Positions 7,901-44,811 of a DNA stretch of 64,000 nt are shown here, piece by piece (position 1 is the stretch's first letter; each line of letters begins with the position of its first letter). The notes under the pieces are model-generated. The model saw only the letters and a program-made list of their open reading frames with translations, was not told the origin of the DNA and searched no databases. Position numbers and translations under genes: made by a program. The stretch lies in contig NC_019867.2 of the NCBI RefSeq assembly GCF_002234675.1, positions 30,942,614-31,006,613 of the forward strand, in the 5' to 3' direction. This DNA is from Oryzias latipes. Taxonomy: Eukaryota > Chordata > Actinopteri > Beloniformes > Adrianichthyidae.

Positions 7901-10900
7901 CACGCCGCCCCGTTAGCAAACACATTTTATGTCCTTTTTTTATCGCTGTGATAAGGAACCCTGATGACCCTCCCGTTCCAAAAAAGTGCTTTTATCATAA
8001 CTTTTAGAGTTGAGCAGCTTAACAACATAGCTGCAGTGAGATAAAAACTGTTTGTTGTTATGAATCCGTCGCCGCTTCCTTTCTGCTGATTTCTTGTTAT
8101 ATTTGACAGGTTTAATGTTAAAAATGTTTGTCTTGATTTGTTTTTAATGAATGTTTCGTAGAAAAATCTGATTTTCTGCACTTTAGTGTTTGTGATAAAT
8201 AGAAGTTGAGTTCTTTAAGCTCCCCCTCTCCTTTCTCTACAGCCACCGCTCCGACTTCTTTTAAGGGCAGCTATGGGAGGATTGTCTACAGAGTGCGGGC
8301 TTTCATTGAAAAGCCGGGTTTTTCAAAGGACTACACTGCAGAGAAACCTTTCTACCTGCACAGCATCCTCAACCTCAACGAGCTGCCGGATGTTTGGGTG
8401 AGCAGCGGGGCTTTATTATGAAAAACAAATGCTGTTAAAGGGTCTTTATCCTGCTTTTCTTAAGCCTTTCAGAGTAAACCATCTCCGTGTATTTGATTTT
8501 ATATTACCTTTGACGAAAGACGATAGAACAATTTCTTAATTGAATTTATTTTTGCAGCTCTTTTCTACACCCACAAGTAAGGCGACTTGATCTCTGAGGC
8601 TCCGCCTTTCTTTCCTTGTGGGTGCCGCCCATTTCATGACATCATCCTCGATTCAGCGCCGCCTCTGTGTTTCTGTCACAAAAACAAACATCCAAACTTT
8701 TCCAAAGCTGGATGTTCATTCATATCAAATGAAAGCCGATCACCGCTAGCTTCACGGAGAAAGTGGGCGTGTATGTTTGCCTGGGGGTGGAGCTGGCAGT
8801 GCAGACTCTTCCTGGAAGGGGCGGTTCTTCACTTTGTGATGTCACAATGTGCTCGTTTTTTTGGATTGGGAGGGGCTGGTGGTTTTTAGAGGAATACTCA
8901 GAGATGTGTGAACGGATAAAAATAACACTGTTGAGTTGTTTATTGGGAAGAACCAACGTTATAAAACATTTTAAAAAAGAGCTTCTGTTTCTTTCTCTTC
9001 ACTAAGTAGAAAAACTAAATTACTTGCGTCTTATGGGGGAAACTGAAAACATTTAAAAGATTTTTGAGTTACAAAATTAAGAGGTCCAAGTTCTCAACTA
9101 CCAGAAATGTTTGTTTGAACAGATACTTTATAAAAAAAACACTAAAATCAAGGTGTGATGCTCAATGGCGTTCTGAATGAGGTCACTTAACTTATTTGTC
9201 TTTTGAATGTCAAATCTGGAACATGAACATTCAATGCTTTGGTTTGAGTTGAGTCCATCTTGGGTTGCTGCTGCTAAACTCGAGTAGTTTCAGGTGATTT
9301 TTGACCCGTTTGACCTTCTGCTCATTTGACAAGCAACTCTCAAGTTTTAAAAACAGCTGATGTTCCATCAACTTTGACTGAACGCCTTTGACACTGAGCC
9401 AGCTCCTTTCAAATGAAACCGAGTGAGAGCTGCTTCTTGGCCTGTCAGGTGTTTATTTCACCCATCCAGACTCATGTCGTTCCCCCTGCAGGGCATCAAC
9501 TCTTCAGAAGTCAGTCAGCAGTTCACCTACATGCTGATGAAGACGGGCACCATAGTCCTGAGGGCCCAAACGGACATGAAGGGCTACACTCCCAACCAGA
9601 TCATCCAGGTGATGGCCAACATCCACAACCAGTCTGGGAAGAGCACGGGCAACATCTCCGCCAGCCTGGTGCAGGTGAGGACTCATCACGCCTCTTTAGA
9701 GTGTACTGATGATGATCCACACTATAGAACACGTGTCAAACTCGAGGCCCACTATGTGGCCCACGAGAGCATAAAGGTTTTTAATGTCTGAAAATTAAAA
9801 TTGGTGTGTATTTATTCATATCTGGGGGGAATCAGACTTGAAATATCAGATTGGTCAACTATACATCAGGACCTAAACACTGTCCATATAACCTAACCTG
9901 GCAGATTTATGCTAAAGTAACAAGCAAACATATGTATTTACATATATATTTTCTATGCAACTGGAATTGTCACTTTAAAAAGTTATAGTAAATAAATACA
10001 TTTTTTAACATTAAGGAGTACCGGTAGTTACATTTATTTTTCATTACTTTTAGTTACATGTATAAGTTAAATGTGGCCTTCTGTGAAAATGAGTTTGACC
10101 CCCCTGCTATAGAAGAACATTATCCTTCAAAGATTCGTGTATTAAGAATGTATTTTTACAAAAACTTGAATTAAAAATACCCAGTTTATTTAAATGTCAT
10201 TCAGTCTTTCCCTGAGCTGCTTTGCTAAACATGATGCTCCTTTTATTCTCTTTTCTGTTGAAGCCTTCAGAATCATGTTTGTAATTCTGGTTTTCAAACA
10301 AGGAAAGAAAAAAAATGTGGTATTTATCACCATCACATGTAAACATCTGGGGTTTTTATCCCTAAAAGTTGAGTGTTAGAGTAATAAACGTTAAAATTTC
10401 TATACATTTTTTGTAAAGAGATGAACAAGTAATTATTGTTGGCATTGAAATGCAAGATCAACAAAAGCAATTAAAGAAGCTAAAGTAGGTCACAAAAACA
10501 CCAAAATGTCACACGAGCTGTTCCTATGTAATTATTATAGTATTTAACTGTTTTTTTCAGTCACTTTGGTTCATTCCTCTCAACAGAATTCAACTTTGCA
10601 CAACAGTTTAATCTCCACAACATTTGGTCGTTGGGGTGCAGCCTAGTGGTGGTTTTATGTTAATTTCATCCAATGCTGTTTGCTTTTGGACATGAAGCAT
10701 TAGAGCAAAAGAATCACTTCTCTTAACTTGTTTAATCGAGTCGGTCAGAATGAGCTGTACTTGTCATTTATCACAGAACTAACAATCTTCAATTCCTTGC
10801 TGGTGTTATTGCACACAAAATAGTAGAACATGTTGTCAAAGGTCGTATGCATCATTTACATTTACATTTAAAAAAGACTTCAAGTTGGCCAAAGGCAGAC

Positions 10901-35000: not shown

Positions 35001-38000
35001 TGCTCCTCCTGCTGCTCCTCCTCCTGCTCCTCCTGCTCCTCCTTCTCCTCCTCCTCCTGCTCCTCCTGCTCCTCCTCCTCCTGCTCCTCCTCCTCCTGCT
35101 CCTCTTCCTCCTCCTCCTGCTGCTCCTCCTGCTGCTGCTCCTCCTGCTGCTCCTCCTGCTCCTCCTCCTCCTCCTGCTGCTCCTCCTCCTCCTCCTCCTC
35201 CTCCTGCTGCTCCTCCTGCTCCTCCTGCTCCTCCTCCTCCTGCTCCTCCTCCTGCTCCTTACCTGGCGGGGTACACCCCAGACAGGTCGCCAGTTTGTCG
35301 CAGGGATGCACAATCGCACACCCTCACAGTCACACCTGAGGACAATTCAGAGCCATCAGTCAACCAGCAAGCATGTTTTTGGACTGTGGGAGGAAGCCAG
35401 AGAAAACAGGGAGGACATGTGGACTCCACAAAGAACAGTCCCAGCCGGGATTCAAACCATAGCACCACCGTGCAGCCCATTAAAAAAAAGAGAAGGTGTG
35501 TCATACTGCACTGAACAAAAGGAGAGAAGGGAGCCGTGATCCAGCTAGACAACACTAGTTATATGTATAGGTGGACTGAAGCCTAAGCTGTTTGTCCCGC
35601 AGGTTGTTTTTGTTACCCTCTGAGTTCCAAACGTTCTTCCTGACCCAAACCTGTGAGCACTTCCTGTTTTTACCTGGCCCTCTTTCACCTCAGGGACATT
35701 TCTCGGGGTTACGAGGCCGTTCCCATAACCTGCGTCAACGGAGTCGACAGCGAGCCGTGTCCCGACAACTTCAAGTACGTCCCAGACAGCTGCGTCACCT
35801 CCCCCCTAAACATCGACAACGACATCACTCGTTTGCAGGTGAGCCCTACCTCTGTACTGAATCACAGAGCAGCTTCCTGCTGCAGTTTCCTGCAGCAGCT
35901 TCCTGCAGCAGCTTCCTGCAGCAGCTTCCTGCAGCAGCTTCCTGCTGCAGCTTCCTGCAGCAGCTTCCTGCAGCAGCTTCCTGCAGCAGCTTCCTGCAGC
36001 AGCTTCCTGCAGCAGCTTCCTGCAGCAGCTTCCTGCAGCAGCTTCCTGCTGCAGCTTCCTGCAGCAGCTTCCTGCAGCAGCTTCCTGCAGCAGCTTCCTG
36101 CAGCAGCTTCCTGCAGCAGCTTCCTGCTGCAGCTTCCTGCAGCAGCTTCCTGCAGCAGCTTCCTGCTGCAGCTTCCTGCAGCAGCTTCCTGCAGCAGCTT
36201 CCTGCAGCAGCTTCCTGCAGCAGCTTCCAGACCCCACGTTTCACTCAATCCTGACTGTTTCTGTGTCCCAAAGCACTGCAGCTGCGCAGACGACTGCTCC
36301 TCCAGCTCCTGCATGTGCGCACAGCTCAGCCTGAGGTGTTGGTACGACAGCGTGAGTTCACACCGCCGCCACACACATGACCCCCCCCCCCCCCCCCCAA
36401 GGAAACAAAAATGATGACCTCACAGCAGCAGATGGTGAAACCGTCAAAAAACTGGCCAAAACCCCTTATGGGGCTCAAAAAAACTCTTTCAAAATCGTCT
36501 AATGAAACCACAACACACCCAAAGGAAAGGTTTAAGTTATTATGGGATGGCTACAGGACCTACTCCTTGGTGGGCATTTTGTGACAATCTGTGAATGTGG
36601 TGAATTTTAAATTGTTACACAAAATGGGAAACCAAAAACATTTGTTTGAGCGATATTTCACACACGCTACAGTCTTATTGACCTTTGACCTTGGGAAGAA
36701 GCAGCATCTTGATTTTTTTATCAACAAAACAAAACATGCAATGACATGTAAGGGTCTAAACCAGGGGTCCCTAAATCCAGGGGTCCCCAAATCCCGGCCT
36801 GGAGGGCCGATGTGCTGCTGGTTTTCCAAAAACCTGCCTCATCTGCTGCTGATTACCTGGATCAGGTGTGTTTAAGGATCTTCAATGGCAGGTTGGTTGG
36901 AAAACATGCGGCCCTCCAGGCCGGGATTTGGGGGCCCCTGGTCTACACCCTGAGCACAGGAGGGTCCTTATCAGGACCAATGAGTCCACTGATGACTCGG
37001 TTCTCTCTGCGAGAGTTTTGCTCTCTGGCGTTTGTGCAGATGCTGTGTTGTTTGTGTGTTTGCAGGACGGCCGTCTGCCTCTGGACTTCTGCCAGTTTGA
37101 GCCCCCGGTTCTGTTCGAGTGTAACCACGCCTGTTCCTGCTGGAGGTCCTGCAGGAACCGTGTGGTTCAGAATGGACTCAGGTGATGTTTGAAGCCGCTG
37201 TTTGTCCAGATGCGCATTTACCATGCGTTATCGCTTTCTGCAGGAGGCCTTATAGCCAATGAAAAGTCCACAGATTTAGCTTTTTTTCTTCAGGATTTGT
37301 TTTTTTGTGCAAAAGTTCAGAGCCTTCTGATGAAACGTCGTGCACCAGTGGACCCCCTTAAAAATGAAAAAGTAGAAATATTACTATATTTCAATGACTG
37401 GATAGAATTGAACTTCCATGAAGGTCCTTTCCATCTGTTTGTGGATCTGTGTTGTCCTCGTGGGCGACACACATGCTGCTCTTCAGATTCAGCGACCCGA
37501 AGAGCATTTTTAGGGAGAAGCCTGCAGATCTGACCTGCAGTCGATCAAACGGATGTGAGCGGATCAGAGGAGCGACAGCAGCAACGACGTCTGTCCTGTT
37601 CATTTTTTTATGGGTTAAATATAGAATGTTTTAGAAGAGGCTAGTTTATAGTAGCAGTTCTCATGTGTTTCTGTCACACGTATGCACAGAACTTTATTGA
37701 AATTCTAGAAATGTTGTAGAAACACAATTTCACAATCACAGCTTCCATTAAATCCTGAAACCGACTCAGGCGATTAGTCCTTCAGGATCACGGATGTGAA
37801 CGATACTTTGATTGACAGCAGATACATCCACATTTCTGCCACGGCGCTAGCGCTCATCATCATCCATCAAAGGAGACGCTGGCGTCTTCTTCAGGTCGGG
37901 GAGTGGCGAGCTCATTACATGTGGGAGGGGCTACGGATGAAGTAGTTTTTGGTGATTTTCCAGAGGAGCTGTGGATCCAACAATTTCCACACGACACGCT

Positions 38001-41000
38001 CAGCTTTGGATGAGCTGTGAGACCCTGTGGGACCTCTGGTGGCGCCCATTGCTGCGATCTAAGGCCACCAGTTCCTACCCAGAAGAGCATCTGGTTGTTG
38101 GTCACACGACTCGGTTCATGTGAAAAAAAGTGTTTCATTGCAGTTTTGGGAAATATGTCAAATTCATTAGGCCTCAAAAACATCCTCCAAGCACAAAAAC
38201 CGTTTTCGTTAAATGCAAGTCTTTTTTTTTTCCATTAGGCGGATTTCTGATCGCAAATCCAATTTGAACCAATTTATAGTCGATGCAGATCCAGCTACTC
38301 ATTCAGGGGTTGTTTTAGGGTTCAGTCATGGCGTCTGGACCGGTCCTTTCTCCTTGAAGTGTTTTTCTTCCTCCATGTGTCTTCATCGGTGAGAGAGAGG
38401 GTTCAAATCCCAAATGAACTCTCCAGGTCAGCCACGCTCCGGGGGGGGGGGGGGGGGGGGGAATAACGGAGAACCGGGAGAGGCCCCCTCCTCCCAGCAT
38501 CCCTCCTGTTAAGATTGGTGCTCGACTGAGACTGTTTGGAGACAGGAAGTGTTGGTGATTTTATTCATCACCACAAAAAAAAGGAATGAAGACGCTGAGG
38601 GAACATGCGAAACACGCAGGTGCTGTGGTCCTTTGCTGCCACATGGGGGCGGTAGAAAAGACGAGGAACAGTCCACAACACCCCATGTTTCTGTCCTAAC
38701 AGAAGCTCCACAGTTTATTGAATTGTTCTTAAGAGCAGCAGCGCCACCTGCTGGATGAGAATGCTGTTGTTGTTGCAGAGTTCGCCTGCAGCTCTTCAGG
38801 ACGGAGAAGATGGGCTGGGGGGTCCGCGCCCTGCAGGATGTTCCTCAGGGAGCGTTCGTCTGCGAGTAAGGACCACATTTCACACGTAGTTTCTGAGCTC
38901 GCGTGTCCCTGCGTGAAAGCCTCTCAGCGCCCCCTTCTGGACGCTCCTGCAGGTACGTGGGCGAGATCATCCGCGACACCGAGGCCGACAAAAGAGAGAG
39001 CGACTCTTTCCTCTTCACTCTCGACAACAAGGTGGGCTTTTCCGTCAGAAGGTGGATCCTCCAACCAGGTCGGTCAGAGATCCAGGTCCACCGCCTGCAG
39101 TCGGTGGAAACATGGTTGTTTGTTTTGTTTTAAACCCACACAATAACACCCCCCCCCCCCCCACACACACACACACACCATGATTAAAAAGAGTGATAAA
39201 GCTGGGAAACGATGTTTTGGTGACATGTCCACATCAGTGACACCCCCCTCCCCCTCCTCTCAAGTTCCCAGAATACACTACCACAGGACCCCCCCCCCCC
39301 AGATCAAAACAAAGAGCCAGACCTGGAAGATACCAATGCAGCGACCCCCATTGACTGAGAAGAGTCACTGATGTGGAGGAAAACACTGGAGTTACAACCA
39401 AAATAGAAAATTAAATATAGATAAATAAGTAAGTACATGAATAAACCTTAATAGATATAAAATGGTAAATTTCAATTAAGAAATTGAATAAATAAAAATA
39501 AATATTATACACATTAAATTAGTAAAAAGAGAACATAAATGGTTAAAACATCAAATAAGTTCCTACATTTCAACTAAAAGTTAGTTTAAAAAGGCAGGAC
39601 TTAAAACATGAGGCATGCTGGGAGGCGGTTCCATAATAACTGAACGAGGCCTCGCCGTATGTTTTAGATCCAACCTCTGGGAAAACCAAAAGGCCGGTAT
39701 CAGAGGACGTCAGGGTCCACGGGGGCTCACACTTTAAACTCATATCTCATAAATATGAAGGCCTGAGACCATAAAAACATTTATAAACCAATAAAAGAAC
39801 TTTAAAAATCAACCCTGAATTTCACAGGGAGCCAATGCAGCGAATTTAAAACGGGTGTAATGTGTCCCCGCCCCCTGGTCCTCATCAGCAGGCGTGCGGC
39901 TGAATTCTGCAGCAGTTGAAGGTTCGATATCCTTATGTTGGCATCACAATAATCTAGGCTGCTGGAAATAAAAGCGTTTTAGCGCCTCTGTGCCGGTAAC
40001 AGAGAGATTGTGTAAACGGTCTGAGTTTTACAGAACGCCAACGAGACGTCAGCCCCTCCCCACAATTTCTACGTGGCAACCAGACATCATTCAACTCGAT
40101 CACAGCAGGTCTCTGCTGTCTGGACCAGAAACGCACAGAGACTGCCATCTAGAGTCAAAAGCCTCATCCCCACTGAGCAGTCCGGTCCGGTTCGGTCTGG
40201 AGTGGTCCAGGCAGGTCAGGGAGGCGTTTCCACTCAAAGTGGGACCGTCACGGCGCAGGGGGGGTGGAGCTAACACCAACAACAAACATTTATTGTTGTT
40301 TGAGAGATTGCAGGCGGCGAGGAGGAATACTGGCTTTCCTGGAACTTTCTTTTGTCATAATGACCTTCAGCCAATCAGTGGGTTTCAACAGTAGCTCCGC
40401 CCTAACCTGTCCGATCCAATTTTCTGTGTTCCTACAGCCAACGGGGGCCCATAAAGGTCTGGCTTAATGGGTCCATTTTTATATAATTCAAAATACCAGA
40501 CCTGACAGAACCAAACCGGACCGTACCACTCATTGGAAACGGGGCAAGAATGGGACTTTGGATCAAACGTTGTCAAACTTGTCTGACAGCATTTCAACTC
40601 AAAAACAGCTGTTTACATTTCCTATTTTCACACAAACGTGATCAGAACATGATCCGGAGCACATGGCCCCCCTCCGTCGCGGGGACTGCCGGGGGGGCAT
40701 GAAATGTGGCCGGGTTGAGGCGGGCATCTAACCGTGGGCTGCTGTGGCAGTGCCCGGTTAGGACCCTCAGAACTGGTCTTTTCCAGGTGGGAGACACCCA
40801 CTGCATCGACGCCAAGTCCTTCGGCAACATCGGCCGCTTCCTGAACCACCTGTGCGAGCCCAACCTGCTGGCCGTGCGGGTGTTCACCACGCACCAGGAC
40901 CTGCGCTTCCCCAGGATTGCCTTCTTCTCCAGCCGGCCCATCAGAGCTGGGGAGCAGATCGGGTGAGCTCCCGCCTGAAACTCCAACCCCAGATCTGCCC

Positions 41001-41139
41001 TGGGGGACCTGTAGACCAACCTTCCTCCTCCTTTCTGTTCAGGATCGACTATGGAGAAAACTACTGGAGGGTGAAGAGCAAATACTTCAGCTGCCAGTGT
41101 GGCTCAGTGAAGTGTCGCTACTCAGCCGCTGGCAGATAA
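23042..41139 (+). CDS. ehmt1: histone H3-K9 methyltransferase EHMT1 (GLP)
   Basis: A nuclear SET-domain enzyme that mono- and dimethylates H3K9, normally as a heterodimer with EHMT2/G9a. Coding exons: 23042-23410, 24284-24398, 25037-25119, 26377-26575, 26666-26811, 28124-28267, 28529-28824, 31314-31388, 31465-31553, 31642-31748, 32598-32720, 33087-33188, 33268-33372, 33740-33894, 33974-34141, 35694-35838, 36274-36351, 37066-37181, 38779-38865, 38953-39031, 40787-40962, 41043-41139. They total 3054 nt, all in phase (1017 aa; human about 1298). Diagnostic EHMT1 segments: [13 protein letters not shown]; the Cys-rich [18 protein letters not shown]...CPHCGE; ankyrin repeats; a full pre-SET, SET and post-SET. 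The first exon could extend in frame to 23019; the true N-terminus may lie in an unseen exon. Oddities: the acidic segment is absent, the C-terminus is short, and GIDYG replaces GFDYG. Some residues ([15 protein letters not shown]) look G9a-like, but the arrdc1 neighbour and N-terminal motif favour EHMT1, possibly a divergent a/b duplicate. Confidence 0.95.
23630..24135 (+). repeat. dispersed repeat family A, long copy
   Basis: Lies in the first visible ehmt1 intron. It includes a 60-codon frame (23873-24055) whose SNIGAF...[13 protein letters not shown] segment parallels SNMGAI...DPESSSDVENRDV encoded by the minus strand at 57060-57160. Tail sequence (ctcctgattta-caa-tttgaa) recurs at 63115-63240. 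It is probably a transposon fragment. Confidence 0.65.
25168..25707. mobile_element. non-autonomous TIR element
   Basis: Thirteen-bp perfect terminal repeats: cgtgtcacacagc at 25168-25180 and its complement at 25695-25707. The interior is AT-rich and non-coding. It lies in the ehmt1 intron just where the acidic-domain exon of other EHMT1 genes would be expected. Confidence 0.75.
25965..26290 (+). repeat. low-complexity/repeat tract before ehmt1 exon 4
   Basis: Tandem tagaa-type pentamers (25965-25995), actttattaatcc, then an A-rich stretch to 26290. It resembles the 3' tail of an interspersed repeat; the class is not determined. Confidence 0.4.
27110..27330 (-). repeat. dispersed repeat family B, partial inverted copy
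   Basis: The complement matches the middle of 8435-8975 (cagcccctcccaatcc, ggaggaaccgcccttccagg, cacgcccattttctc). It lies in an ehmt1 intron. Confidence 0.75.
27331..28123 (+). other. ehmt1 intron, no recognised feature
   Basis: No exon-like frame fits the phase-0 junction between 26811 and 28124. The A/T-rich 27690-27970 stretch repeats tatcgcaatat-like phrases and may be a degraded repeat. Confidence 0.4.
28911..30691. mobile_element. 1.78-kb element with 'taccgt...ttccgg' terminal repeats
   Basis: The left end, taccgtaaattccgggctat (28911), pairs with the right end ataatccggaaatgacggta (30672-30691). Near both ends the phrases 'gccgcacc' and 'gccgcatcc' recur. The interior has only short frames (for example 152 codons on the minus strand at 29885-30343, unrecognised). 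It is probably a non-autonomous DNA transposon. The superfamily is not assigned. Confidence 0.65.
31642..34141 (+). other. ehmt1: ehmt1 ankyrin-repeat exons
   Basis: Exons 31642-31748, 32598-32720, 33087-33188, 33268-33372, 33740-33894 and 33974-34141 encode consecutive ankyrin repeats ([59 protein letters not shown]). In mammals this domain reads H3K9me1/2. The cage-forming pattern W-T-P-x-x-W-A-x-E followed by C-L-H-W is intact here, so methyl-lysine reading is expected to be kept. Most exon boundaries fall once per repeat. Confidence 0.9.
31749..32597 (+). other. ehmt1 intron with short repeat traces
   Basis: 31800-31830 carries the ccaatcagatgcctcagtaaaag phrase also seen at 19960-19985. 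The remainder, including 31935-32590, is AT-rich intron without recognised elements. Confidence 0.45.
34152..35259 (+). repeat. 1.1-kb CTC/CTG trinucleotide array in ehmt1 intron
   Basis: An almost pure mixture of CTC, CTG and a few CTT/CAC/ATC triplets, uninterrupted in triplet phase for about 1108 bp. It begins 10 nt after the splice donor at 34142. The complementary strand is GAG/CAG and purine-rich. Long frames run through it (poly-Leu and Ser/Cys on +; Glu/Gln and Ser/Arg on -). They are products of triplet phase, not genes. A marker cluster at 34371-34440 recurs identically at 34911-34980. Confidence 0.98.
35262..35485 (-). mobile_element. SINE-like element abutting the CTC/CTG array
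   Basis: The complement starts with ggtttgaatcccggctggga (B-box-like), followed by ctttgtggagtccacatgtc. It ends with a gcgacctgtctggggtgtac phrase, a common fish interspersed repeat. The array may have grown from its simple-sequence tail. The tRNA origin is inferred. Confidence 0.6.
35871..36228 (+). repeat. 13-bp minisatellite in ehmt1 intron
   Basis: About 27 copies of cttcctgcagcag, with a ctgctgcag variant in some units. It fills most of a 435-bp intron. Because 13 is not a multiple of 3, the same peptide pattern appears in every frame; these frames are not genes. Confidence 0.97.
36370..36400 (+). repeat. poly(C) tract
   Basis: About 19 consecutive C just downstream of the ehmt1 exon ending at 36351. 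Confidence 0.9.
36761..36941. mobile_element. palindromic MITE
   Basis: The 22-bp arm at 36787-36808 (ccaaatcccggcctggaggg...) is perfectly complemented at 36910-36931, with outer ends ccaggggtccc / ggggcccctgg. It is a hairpin-forming, non-coding element of a type widespread in vertebrates. Confidence 0.85.
37182..38778 (+). other. ehmt1 intron
   Basis: Contains a pure run of 21 G at 38441-38461. Otherwise there are no recognised elements. It joins exons in phase 2. Confidence 0.6.
39130..39310 (+). repeat. poly(C)/(CA)n simple-sequence cluster
   Basis: C-runs at about 39150-39163 and 39291-39300 flank a (CA)n stretch at 39162-39178 in the ehmt1 intron. Confidence 0.85.
39570..39965 (+). 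repeat. interspersed repeat, unassigned
   Basis: The phrases ttcacagggagccaatgcag and gcgtgcggctgaattctgcag are typical of a widespread teleost repeat. There is no second copy in the window and no coding frame. Confidence 0.4.
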
Positions 41140-41234: not shown

Positions 41235-41664
41235 AAGCCTTTAGAAGTGTTTTAGAGTCTCCCTCATTTCTGTTTGAGAGAAGTTGGATGAAGCGTTTCA
41301 TTAGAGAAGCTGGAAATGATTGAGTTTGTGAAAATATGGAGGTTTGTTGTCATTCTGCTCCTTTCATTTCTCCTCTGTAGGAATTTTTACCCATCATCCA
41401 TGAAAAGGGATTCAAGAGTGATTCGGTCTGTTCGTGGCAGAGAAACCTTCCAATAAAAACCTATTTTAAAACTAATTCAGAGCAAGAAAAAGCAGAATAT
41501 CAAAAGATGTTTTACAAATCGTCCCGCCTAAAAGAATTATTTTAGGTTTTAGAACTCTGAAGGCTTTTCCTGTCAGGCTTCCGGTCCTTCTGGTTCTGAG
41601 CTTCATTGTCTTCACCTGTGGCAGAACGTTGTCAGTCGTCTGCAGTGAAACCCGCCTTTGTTCT

Positions 41665-43228: not shown

Positions 43229-43395
43229 TATGAGGACATAAATGCTGAGTTGAAAACCGTCAAGTATGAGTGACTAGGGGGACTCGAGGGGCAAGAGACA
43301 AGCAAGAGGCAAGAAGGCTGAGGAACACTGATCCACTTAAAGTCCATTTTATTAGTTAAAAAGAAAAACTTTAGGAAAAATCTTTCCTGAGAACG

Positions 43396-44811
43396 ATGAA
43401 CAGACAGTTTATATTAGATCTTTTCTCTTCAGACTCTGACTCTTCAGATTCCGAATCTGAACGTTTCAATAGACGATTTGGATCTTTAGGAACAATATCT
43501 GAACGTACAGAACCACAGCCTGAATCTACAGGAGCATCATGTCAATCTTCAGGCAGGCGGTTTGAATCTCCAGAAGCGGGATATGAACCTTCAGGGACAG
43601 AATCCGACTCTTCAGACACAGAACCTGAAGAGAGAAAAGGGAAGGTCCAAAGCAAATCCTGGATGTCAAACCTCAAATCGGCTTTTGCAAAAACACAGGC
43701 GGAAAAAGAGAAGCCAGCCACGGAACCGGGAAAGGGTCCAAACAAAGAGGAAGAAGGCGCTCCTGAAAAGCCCAGGGGCCTGTTTAGACGGCGTTTTAAG
43801 AGAAGGCCGGCTGACGGAACACCAGCGGGTTCAAGCGCGGAGGAAAAACCACAAGGGTTGAAAAAAGGAATGATCAGATCACCGTCTGCAGAACGAGAAC
43901 TGGAATTTATAAGAAACTTCCTCTTCCCTGCAGACGCAGAATCTTCAGACTCTGATTGGGACCCTACAGACTCGGACCCTGGTTCAGAATCTGATTTTGA
44001 AGATGATCCAGACCAAGAACTTCCTCCAATCACAAAAGCTCAAGAATTTGCAGAAAAAATTAGATCTTGGGCTGCAAAAGTAAGATCCTGCTTTACAAAG
44101 ATGGACCCAGCGTCAGACGGGGCAACAACTACAAGCGGTTCAGAGAGTACAGGAAGCTCCAGTTCATGCGGTCTGGGTATAAGACCTCGGTTCATAGACA
44201 CCGACTCAATCTATTTATCCTCATCTCCACCCTTGTATTTCCGGGAGATCGCCAACGAACAGGATGAACCGAACGATGCGCCAAGGTCACCTGAAATCGA
44301 ACCCCAGTCTAGGGCAGAAAGGTTCCGGTCGTGGTTTCATCAAATAAGACACAAAGTTAGAGAATCTGAAACCTCGTCTGACAGTGGGAACACGAACTAC
44401 CCCATAGAGGACTTGGAGGTGTCGCTACGTCAACTGGTTGCAACGATCTTTTCCAAGCCGAGCAAATGCACGGAGAACTTCGATTCGGAAAGCCTTTGTG
44501 AGGAGCTTTTGCGAAAAATCCTGTCGAGGGTTTCCGCTGGAAAGATTCGGGTCGACTGGGAAGACATCAGGACGGAACTCCACACGCGTGTTCACAGGGA
44601 GCTGCTCAAACACTGGGAGTCGCCGGAGTTTGTGCAGCTGTTCACCTTCTTGAGGTCCAGAGTGGCCATAGAGACCATCGCCGCCGTGTACGCTCAGCAG
44701 CTGACCCGGAGGACGTTTGGCGGAAGCGTCAAACGGCTTTTCAGGTGCTGCCGTGTGCGGAGAGCAACGGGGGCGGGGGATTGTCCTGAACCGGAGTGGC
44801 TAGATTTTTAG
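43396..44811 (+). CDS. uncharacterised intronless 471-aa acidic/Ser-rich protein
   Basis: I do not recognise this gene. A single uninterrupted 472-codon frame in a spacer where other frames stay below about 215 codons. Residues 1-80 and 180-210 are Ser/Asp/Glu-rich and probably disordered. A basic patch lies at 128-138 (GLFRRRFKRR). A 13-residue motif occurs three times: KSWMSNLKSAFAK (87-99), RSWAAKVRSCFTK (223-235) and RSWFHQIRHKVRE (311-323), each beside acidic Ser/Asp linkers. Residues 336-450 look like a folded helical domain (LRQLVATIF, LCEELLRKIL, WEDIRTELH, FVQLFTFLR). The C-terminus has a Cys/Arg cluster (RLFRCCRVRR) and ends EPEWLDF. The first ATG lies soon after a plausible CRE promoter. 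An ATTAAA at 44980-44985 could serve polyadenylation. It could be a lineage-specific gene, a retrocopy, or transposon cargo. Confidence 0.6.
   Translation: MNRQFILDLFSSDSDSSDSESERFNRRFGSLGTISERTEPQPESTGASCQSSGRRFESPEAGYEPSGTESDSSDTEPEERKGKVQSKSWMSNLKSAFAKTQAEKEKPATEPGKGPNKEEEGAPEKPRGLFRRRFKRRPADGTPAGSSAEEKPQGLKKGMIRSPSAERELEFIRNFLFPADAESSDSDWDPTDSDPGSESDFEDDPDQELPPITKAQEFAEKIRSWAAKVRSCFTKMDPASDGATTTSGSESTGSSSSCGLGIRPRFIDTDSIYLSSSPPLYFREIANEQDEPNDAPRSPEIEPQSRAERFRSWFHQIRHKVRESETSSDSGNTNYPIEDLEVSLRQLVATIFSKPSKCTENFDSESLCEELLRKILSRVSAGKIRVDWEDIRTELHTRVHRELLKHWESPEFVQLFTFLRSRVAIETIAAVYAQQLTRRTFGGSVKRLFRCCRVRRATGAGDCPEPEWLDF

Follow-up and report, generated by a model that had tools for sequence, protein, structure and literature searches.

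An isoleucine in place of phenylalanine at the Phe/Tyr switch of one of two medaka ehmt1 genes

Of the features that set how many methyl groups a SET enzyme adds, the Phe/Tyr switch is the best known; the paper on this switch is reportedly that of Collins from 2005. In a window of 64,000 nucleotides of the medaka (Oryzias latipes) genome, by which we mean the whole stretch of DNA analysed, an earlier note made from the letters of the sequence had read isoleucine (Ile) at this position in a gene of EHMT1 type. Is this residue genuine, where did it arise, and what kind of enzyme would carry it? A natural Ile variant that shares one animal with a sister gene bearing phenylalanine (Phe) and with Ehmt2 offers a convenient test of whether an aliphatic switch can work in the H3K9 family, and the Ile copy may be a sign that the duplicated ehmt1 genes of the fish share out their work.

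The ehmt1 gene of the window was spliced by hand into 15 exons (31290-41139, + strand; 575 codons including the stop, with no internal stop), and all 14 introns of this model are of the GT-AG type (Table 1). Ankyrin, pre-SET, SET and post-SET domains are encoded in this interval. Pfam matches were obtained for Ank, Pre-SET, SET and EHMT1-2_CRR, and their arrangement is that of EHMT1, with a cysteine-rich region upstream, then the ankyrin repeats, and finally the pre-SET, SET and post-SET domains. The GC3 of the exons is 0.78, against a G+C of 0.50 in the introns, tandem arrays included, and the usual signs of a pseudogene (stops, frameshifts, broken splice sites, relaxed constraint) were not found over 31290-41139. 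Two of the introns are rich in repeats: a 1.1 kb CTCCTCCTG-type tandem array (34154-35259) lies in the intron 3' of the ankyrin exons, and 27.8 copies of the 13-base tandem repeat AGCAGCTTCCTGC (35868-36228) take up most of the intron that precedes the pre-SET exon. A missing pre-SET exon, suspected from the latter repeat, was ruled out, the exon being that at 36274-36351. The encoded protein ends with RYSAAGR (41116-41139), seven residues past the last post-SET cysteine. It thereby lacks the longer C-terminal tail of the second medaka ehmt1 and of ehmt2, and its short tail also differs from the longer one of human EHMT1.

Table 1. Positions, within the window, of the exons and other features of the ehmt1 gene and of the changed pocket codons (G9a numbering).
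Feature	Position	Strand	Remark
EHMT1/2 cysteine-rich region exon (PF21533)	28529-28824	+	boundaries inferred
Exons e_a to e_h, pre-ankyrin segment and ankyrin repeats	31290-34141	+	cage motifs kept
N-SET/pre-SET exon (RDISRGYE...)	35694-35838	+	
Pre-SET exon, zinc-cluster cysteines, first half	36274-36351	+	13-base tandem repeat in preceding intron
Pre-SET exon, zinc-cluster cysteines, second half	37066-37181	+	
SET exon with GWGVR	38779-38865	+	cofactor-binding motif kept
SET exon with EYVGE Tyr and SFLFTL	38953-39031	+	Tyr is Y1067, kept
Y1085F	39008-39010	+	
D1088T	39017-39019	+	
SET exon with GEQIG	40787-40962	+	
Last coding exon, IDYG and post-SET zinc lobe (CQCGSVKC)	41043-41139	+	
R1157N and F1158Y codons	41059-41064	+	adjoining the switch; F1158Y at 41062-41064
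Stop TAA	41137-41139	+	
AATAAA/ATTAAA-type poly(A) signal	41229	+	

The earlier attribution to EHMT1 is supported by the ankyrin part, whose best PDB match is EHMT1 (6by9, 172 of 265 residues identical; no human EHMT2 ankyrin structure was among the matches listed). The SET region alone does not separate EHMT1 from EHMT2: it shares 181 of 255 residues with GLP and 174 with G9a, it obtains 451.1 phmmer bits for EHMT2 and 448.8 for EHMT1, and in a tree of five rows the fork separating the other four rows from that of the window stays open. The gene appears to be of EHMT1 type, under a name that leans mainly on its ankyrin part. The aromatic cage motifs of the ankyrin reader, already said to be intact, are indeed kept. 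Upstream of the gene, an ORF at 8203-8418 resembles the end of Arrestin_N (E 8.7e-05; 23.0 bits, below the Pfam cut-off of 24.9), and such an arrestin-like neighbour presumably fits the human gene order ARRDC1-EHMT1.

The switch residue is encoded by ATC at 41044-41046 (+ strand), immediately after base 41043, which is the last base of a Gly codon split by the intron (GG|G); across the splice the codons read GGG GAG CAG ATC GG|G ATC GAC TAT GGA. This last intron (40963-41042) is 80 bases long and of the GT-AG type, with a canonical donor after 40962 (CGG|GTGAGC) and a canonical acceptor before 41043 (TTCAG|G). The equivalent residues in the human enzymes are G9a F1152 and GLP F1209. A gapless phmmer alignment sets the Ile opposite the FDYG Phe of human EHMT2, and it also matches the switch Phe in a position-by-position comparison with human EHMT1, so the reading of Ile at the switch stands. 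An alternative acceptor that restores Phe was sought, as had been proposed, and ruled out: the four AGs of the last intron give candidate exon starts at 40968, 40993, 41015 and 41043, all of them 5' of the ATC codon, and thus no acceptor in this intron puts Phe there. The consensus of SET methyltransferases around the switch is given as ELxF/YDY (PMC10404681), from which the window gene departs with EQIGIDY, Ile taking the F/Y place. Phe is the residue typical of the family, and homology to EHMT1 does not require it at this position.

The relatives of the gene were searched for in the same assembly (734,051,031 bases in 25 contigs, the window lying on contig C9). Queried with the DNA of the last two exons, the assembly yielded three matches, namely the window itself (100%), a place on contig C12 (78%) and one on C11 (78%). 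The C12 locus (about 25.92 Mb) is a second ehmt1 that reads GEELG-FNYGDHFW, and the C11 locus (about 5.417 Mb) is ehmt2, which reads GQELG-FDYGDRFW. Phe thus occupies the switch in the four EHMT sequences compared (human G9a, human GLP, C12 ehmt1 and C11 ehmt2), and because both other fish genes and both human genes carry it, the Ile is derived on the branch of the window gene. The C12 gene resembles the window gene in its ehmt1-type ankyrin and SET exons, in a shared 12-residue stretch and in the replacement of D1088 and R1157; it differs in the Phe of FNYG, in retaining Y1085 and F1158, in changes of its own and in the C-terminal tail that follows its post-SET domain. The C11 gene has the same SET exon junction and phase, but differs by FDYGDRFW and by keeping six of six lysine-channel aromatics. 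The window gene thus appears to be a teleost ehmt1 that codes for protein, and the genome holds one further copy. One ehmt2 together with two ehmt1 genes fits the set of a zebrafish survey (ehmt2, ehmt1a and ehmt1b), which traced zebrafish pairs to the teleost genome duplication (passages of PMC2200798).

Ile at the switch is unusual among EHMT genes and less so across SET domains overall. The assembly holds 47 SET matches, 45 of which are covered by 40 loci (L002-L041), the excluded ones being the window's own and C8:4016646. A motif scan over these loci returned 29 rows, from which L010 and one of the two rows of L011 were removed as chance matches; in the remaining 27, which include near-duplicate loci, the switch residue is Tyr in 16, Phe in eight, Val in two, Ala in one and Ile in none. 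A looser listing supplies further loci (Tyr for L006 and L025, Phe for L013), and Phe is also found in L037 and in the C12 gene of L014; eight loci (L010, L024, L026, L028-L031 and L039) yielded no residue. Strings of the form I-N-Y or I-D-Y (e.g. in L003, L011, L021, L022, L030 and L031) were rejected as chance, since they lie on the opposite strand or in stop-containing stretches. Viral contigs scanned by patterns for relatives gave no match, and among genome contigs seven stretches matched a pattern, one of which encodes a relative. The latter is a bacterial SET-domain ORF (L001:1501-1827) on a Chlamydiae MAG contig, with the identical octapeptide IDYGENYW and hence Ile at the switch; as IDYGENYW was itself among the scan patterns, this match is a selected one.

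The claim that all other catalytic landmarks are intact holds for the cysteines, for Y1067 and for the catalytic Y1154, but not for the lysine channel, where Y1085F and F1158Y are found, nor for two H3R8-contact residues. Of the 203 positions identical in G9a and GLP, 160 are unchanged in the window gene, as are 19 of the 19 cysteines and 19 of the 26 aromatics common to both. The gene differs at 23 of the 161 positions that are invariant in G9a, GLP, C12 and ehmt2; for C12, counted likewise, the figure is 16 of 154. Of the 23 changes, three fall among the six lysine-channel aromatics (Y1085F, F1152I and F1158Y), each in this one of the five sequences only, and Y1067, F1087 and Y1154 are kept. 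Y1085 and F1087 belong to the lysine channel, and Y1085 is a cofactor contact as well. The canonical features of a SET domain (catalytic Tyr, NH.C.PN motif, GWG cofactor motif and zinc cysteines) are present, and H1113 is kept. The 13 zinc-ligand cysteines and the eight comparable cofactor positions considered are likewise unchanged, a ninth cofactor position, 1169, being one at which the two human enzymes already disagree. With Y1085 a cofactor contact and F1158 part of a cofactor-dependent cluster, the cofactor side would be partly touched. This cluster is described in passages of PMC2797608, as are the G9a residues F1158, Y1154, Y1067 and F1152. A literature search on G9a Y1085 and F1087 gave nothing on point, and SETD2 F1668A was absent among the literature matches listed.

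Neither fish ehmt1 gene retains D1088 or R1157, so that these changes are not tied to the Ile copy; the contact made by R1157 may, we presume, be through its backbone. Both residues have been modelled as contacts of H3R8 (PMC10611923), and GLP D1145, the equivalent of G9a D1088, is described as contacting H3K4 (PMC2797608). A borderline excess of change was seen in the substrate pocket (5/11 vs 38/192; Fisher, p = 0.057) and among the channel aromatics (3/6 vs 20/155; Fisher, p = 0.038), both tests being suggestive only, since the residue lists were picked after seeing the differences. Compared with human EHMT1 (GLP), the window gene has the same domain order, ankyrin cage motifs and cysteines, as well as Y1124 (Y1067) and Y1211 (Y1154), and it differs by Ile for F1209, Phe for Y1142, Tyr for F1215 and Thr for D1145 (F1209, F1215 and D1145 as numbered in PMC3356298 and PMC2797608, Y1142 by an offset of +57).

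These counts also bear on whether the Ile could stem from a sequencing or assembly error, a rare allele or a decaying copy. TTC and ATC are indeed separated by a single T-to-A change. However, a full match (100%) to the last two exons exists at a single place of the assembly, the paralogs standing at 78%; the frame is open, the GC3 of the exons departs from the G+C of the introns as given above, and the gene has changed at 22 further positions on which the other four sequences agree, two of these positions belonging to the same pocket. These further changes make a true substitution far likelier, and an artefact or decay of this kind is highly improbable.

What would such a pocket do? The reading that we lean towards, by a little, is that window ehmt1 encodes a working me1/me2 lysine writer with a retuned pocket, marked by the derived Ile together with Y1085F and F1158Y. 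On its own branch, the switch Phe has become Ile and two neighbouring channel aromatics have been replaced. In G9a and GLP, a switch Phe-to-Tyr change gives a mono-methyltransferase, in simulations because an active-site water is held in place (PMC3356298, PMC2797608). Ile, which like Phe has no hydroxyl to hold this water, is expected to behave in a Phe-like rather than a Tyr-like manner and should not confine the enzyme to monomethylation. Furthermore, Y1067 of G9a (Y1124 of GLP) restrains the third methyl, as reported from a mutant (PMC2797608) and from simulation (PMC3356298), and as this Tyr is kept, it should still restrain trimethylation. The net outcome would be a retuned me1/me2 writer working alongside Ehmt2; we infer that the enzyme still methylates lysine, and it is perhaps slightly leakier to me3 or slower.

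Published variants lend this reading some support. Among the papers listed by a literature search, which covered few subscription journals, none described a G9a or GLP mutant carrying Ile at the switch. In yeast Set1, the switch mutants Y1052A and Y1052V were classed as 'silent', their H3K4me3 reaching 1.05-fold and 2.70-fold the wild-type level, respectively, and Y1052A lowered H3K4me1 to 0.35 and H3K4me2 to 0.59 of wild type (PMC3585878). The MLL3 switch variant Y4884C dimethylates, with no monomethylation (PMC9630446). That such variants function favours a working me1/me2 enzyme, within the limits of analogies drawn from other enzymes with Tyr as the starting residue, the Set1 variants being laboratory mutants of an H3K4 enzyme. 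The same data can be turned towards a moved product specificity, in which a smaller, hydroxyl-free switch would lead to the third methyl on H3K9 or to another lysine context: the 2.7-fold H3K4me3 of Set1 Y1052V and the products of MLL3 Y4884C point that way, as does the replacement of modelled H3R8 contacts by D1088T and R1157N. Set against this are the kept Y1067 and the replacement of D1088 and R1157 in the sister gene too, besides the backbone contact presumed above for R1157, and we regard such a shift as improbable. Slightly less probable still is the fuller version, that a rebuilt lysine pocket and weakened H3R8 contacts make the protein write H3K9me3 or methylate lysines other than those of its sister after the teleost duplication.

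The opposite outcome also has to be weighed, because the three channel changes combined could lower activity. By our own alignment, Set1 F1056 would correspond to F1158 and Set1 Y993 to Y1085, where the window gene has Phe, and a partial defect at Y993 would by this analogy count against a working enzyme. Such a defect is reported for Set1 Y993A, along with a null F1056A and a silent F1056Y, the last of which speaks for a working enzyme (PMC3585878). G9a needs GLP for its stability, and the two work mainly as a heterodimer joined through the SET domains (PMC8541646), which keeps alive a scaffold reading: the SET domain would be weak or dead, and the protein mainly a reader of H3K9me1/2 and a dimer partner stabilising Ehmt2. 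Three changed channel aromatics out of six and the kept ankyrin cage motifs would suit such a role, and Ehmt2 and the second ehmt1 could supply the activity. The retention of Y1154, Y1067, H1113 and of 13 of 13 zinc-ligand cysteines and eight of eight comparable cofactor positions argues against it, as does the function of the Set1 Ala and Val switch mutants. Loss of activity is not the reading that we favour, and a weak or dead SET domain seems to us rather unlikely, if well worth keeping in view.

Rates of change speak to the same point. With GLP as reference, unique changes in the SET region number 32 in the window gene and 26 in C12, a difference that is not significant (chi-square 0.62; 2 of 255 C12 positions were unresolved and unused). 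The C12 gene has also changed alone at positions shared by the other four sequences, M1048K, D1074E, S1084A and D1153N among them, and M1048 is a cofactor residue. Over 249 codons the window and C12 genes differ with a dN of 0.22 and a dS of 1.47, which is near saturation, giving a dN/dS of about 0.15; this points to purifying selection over the pair, not over the window branch alone. The window gene does not, on these counts, appear clearly more degraded than its sister. Drift of the paralog towards a scaffold, as the earlier note had suggested, is therefore not favoured over an active enzyme, the 19 of 19 cysteines kept and the pairwise dN/dS likewise telling against it.

A contiguous histone-mimic automethylation motif, [AR]RK[TS], was absent from the gene in a scan of positions 1-42000 (+ strand) that intron-split motifs escape, and the sole match in that range, at 41482, lies 3' of the stop codon. 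Further downstream (43375-44808), a stop-to-stop open frame of 478 residues, with no Pfam match at E <= 0.01, is rich in Ser and Glu.
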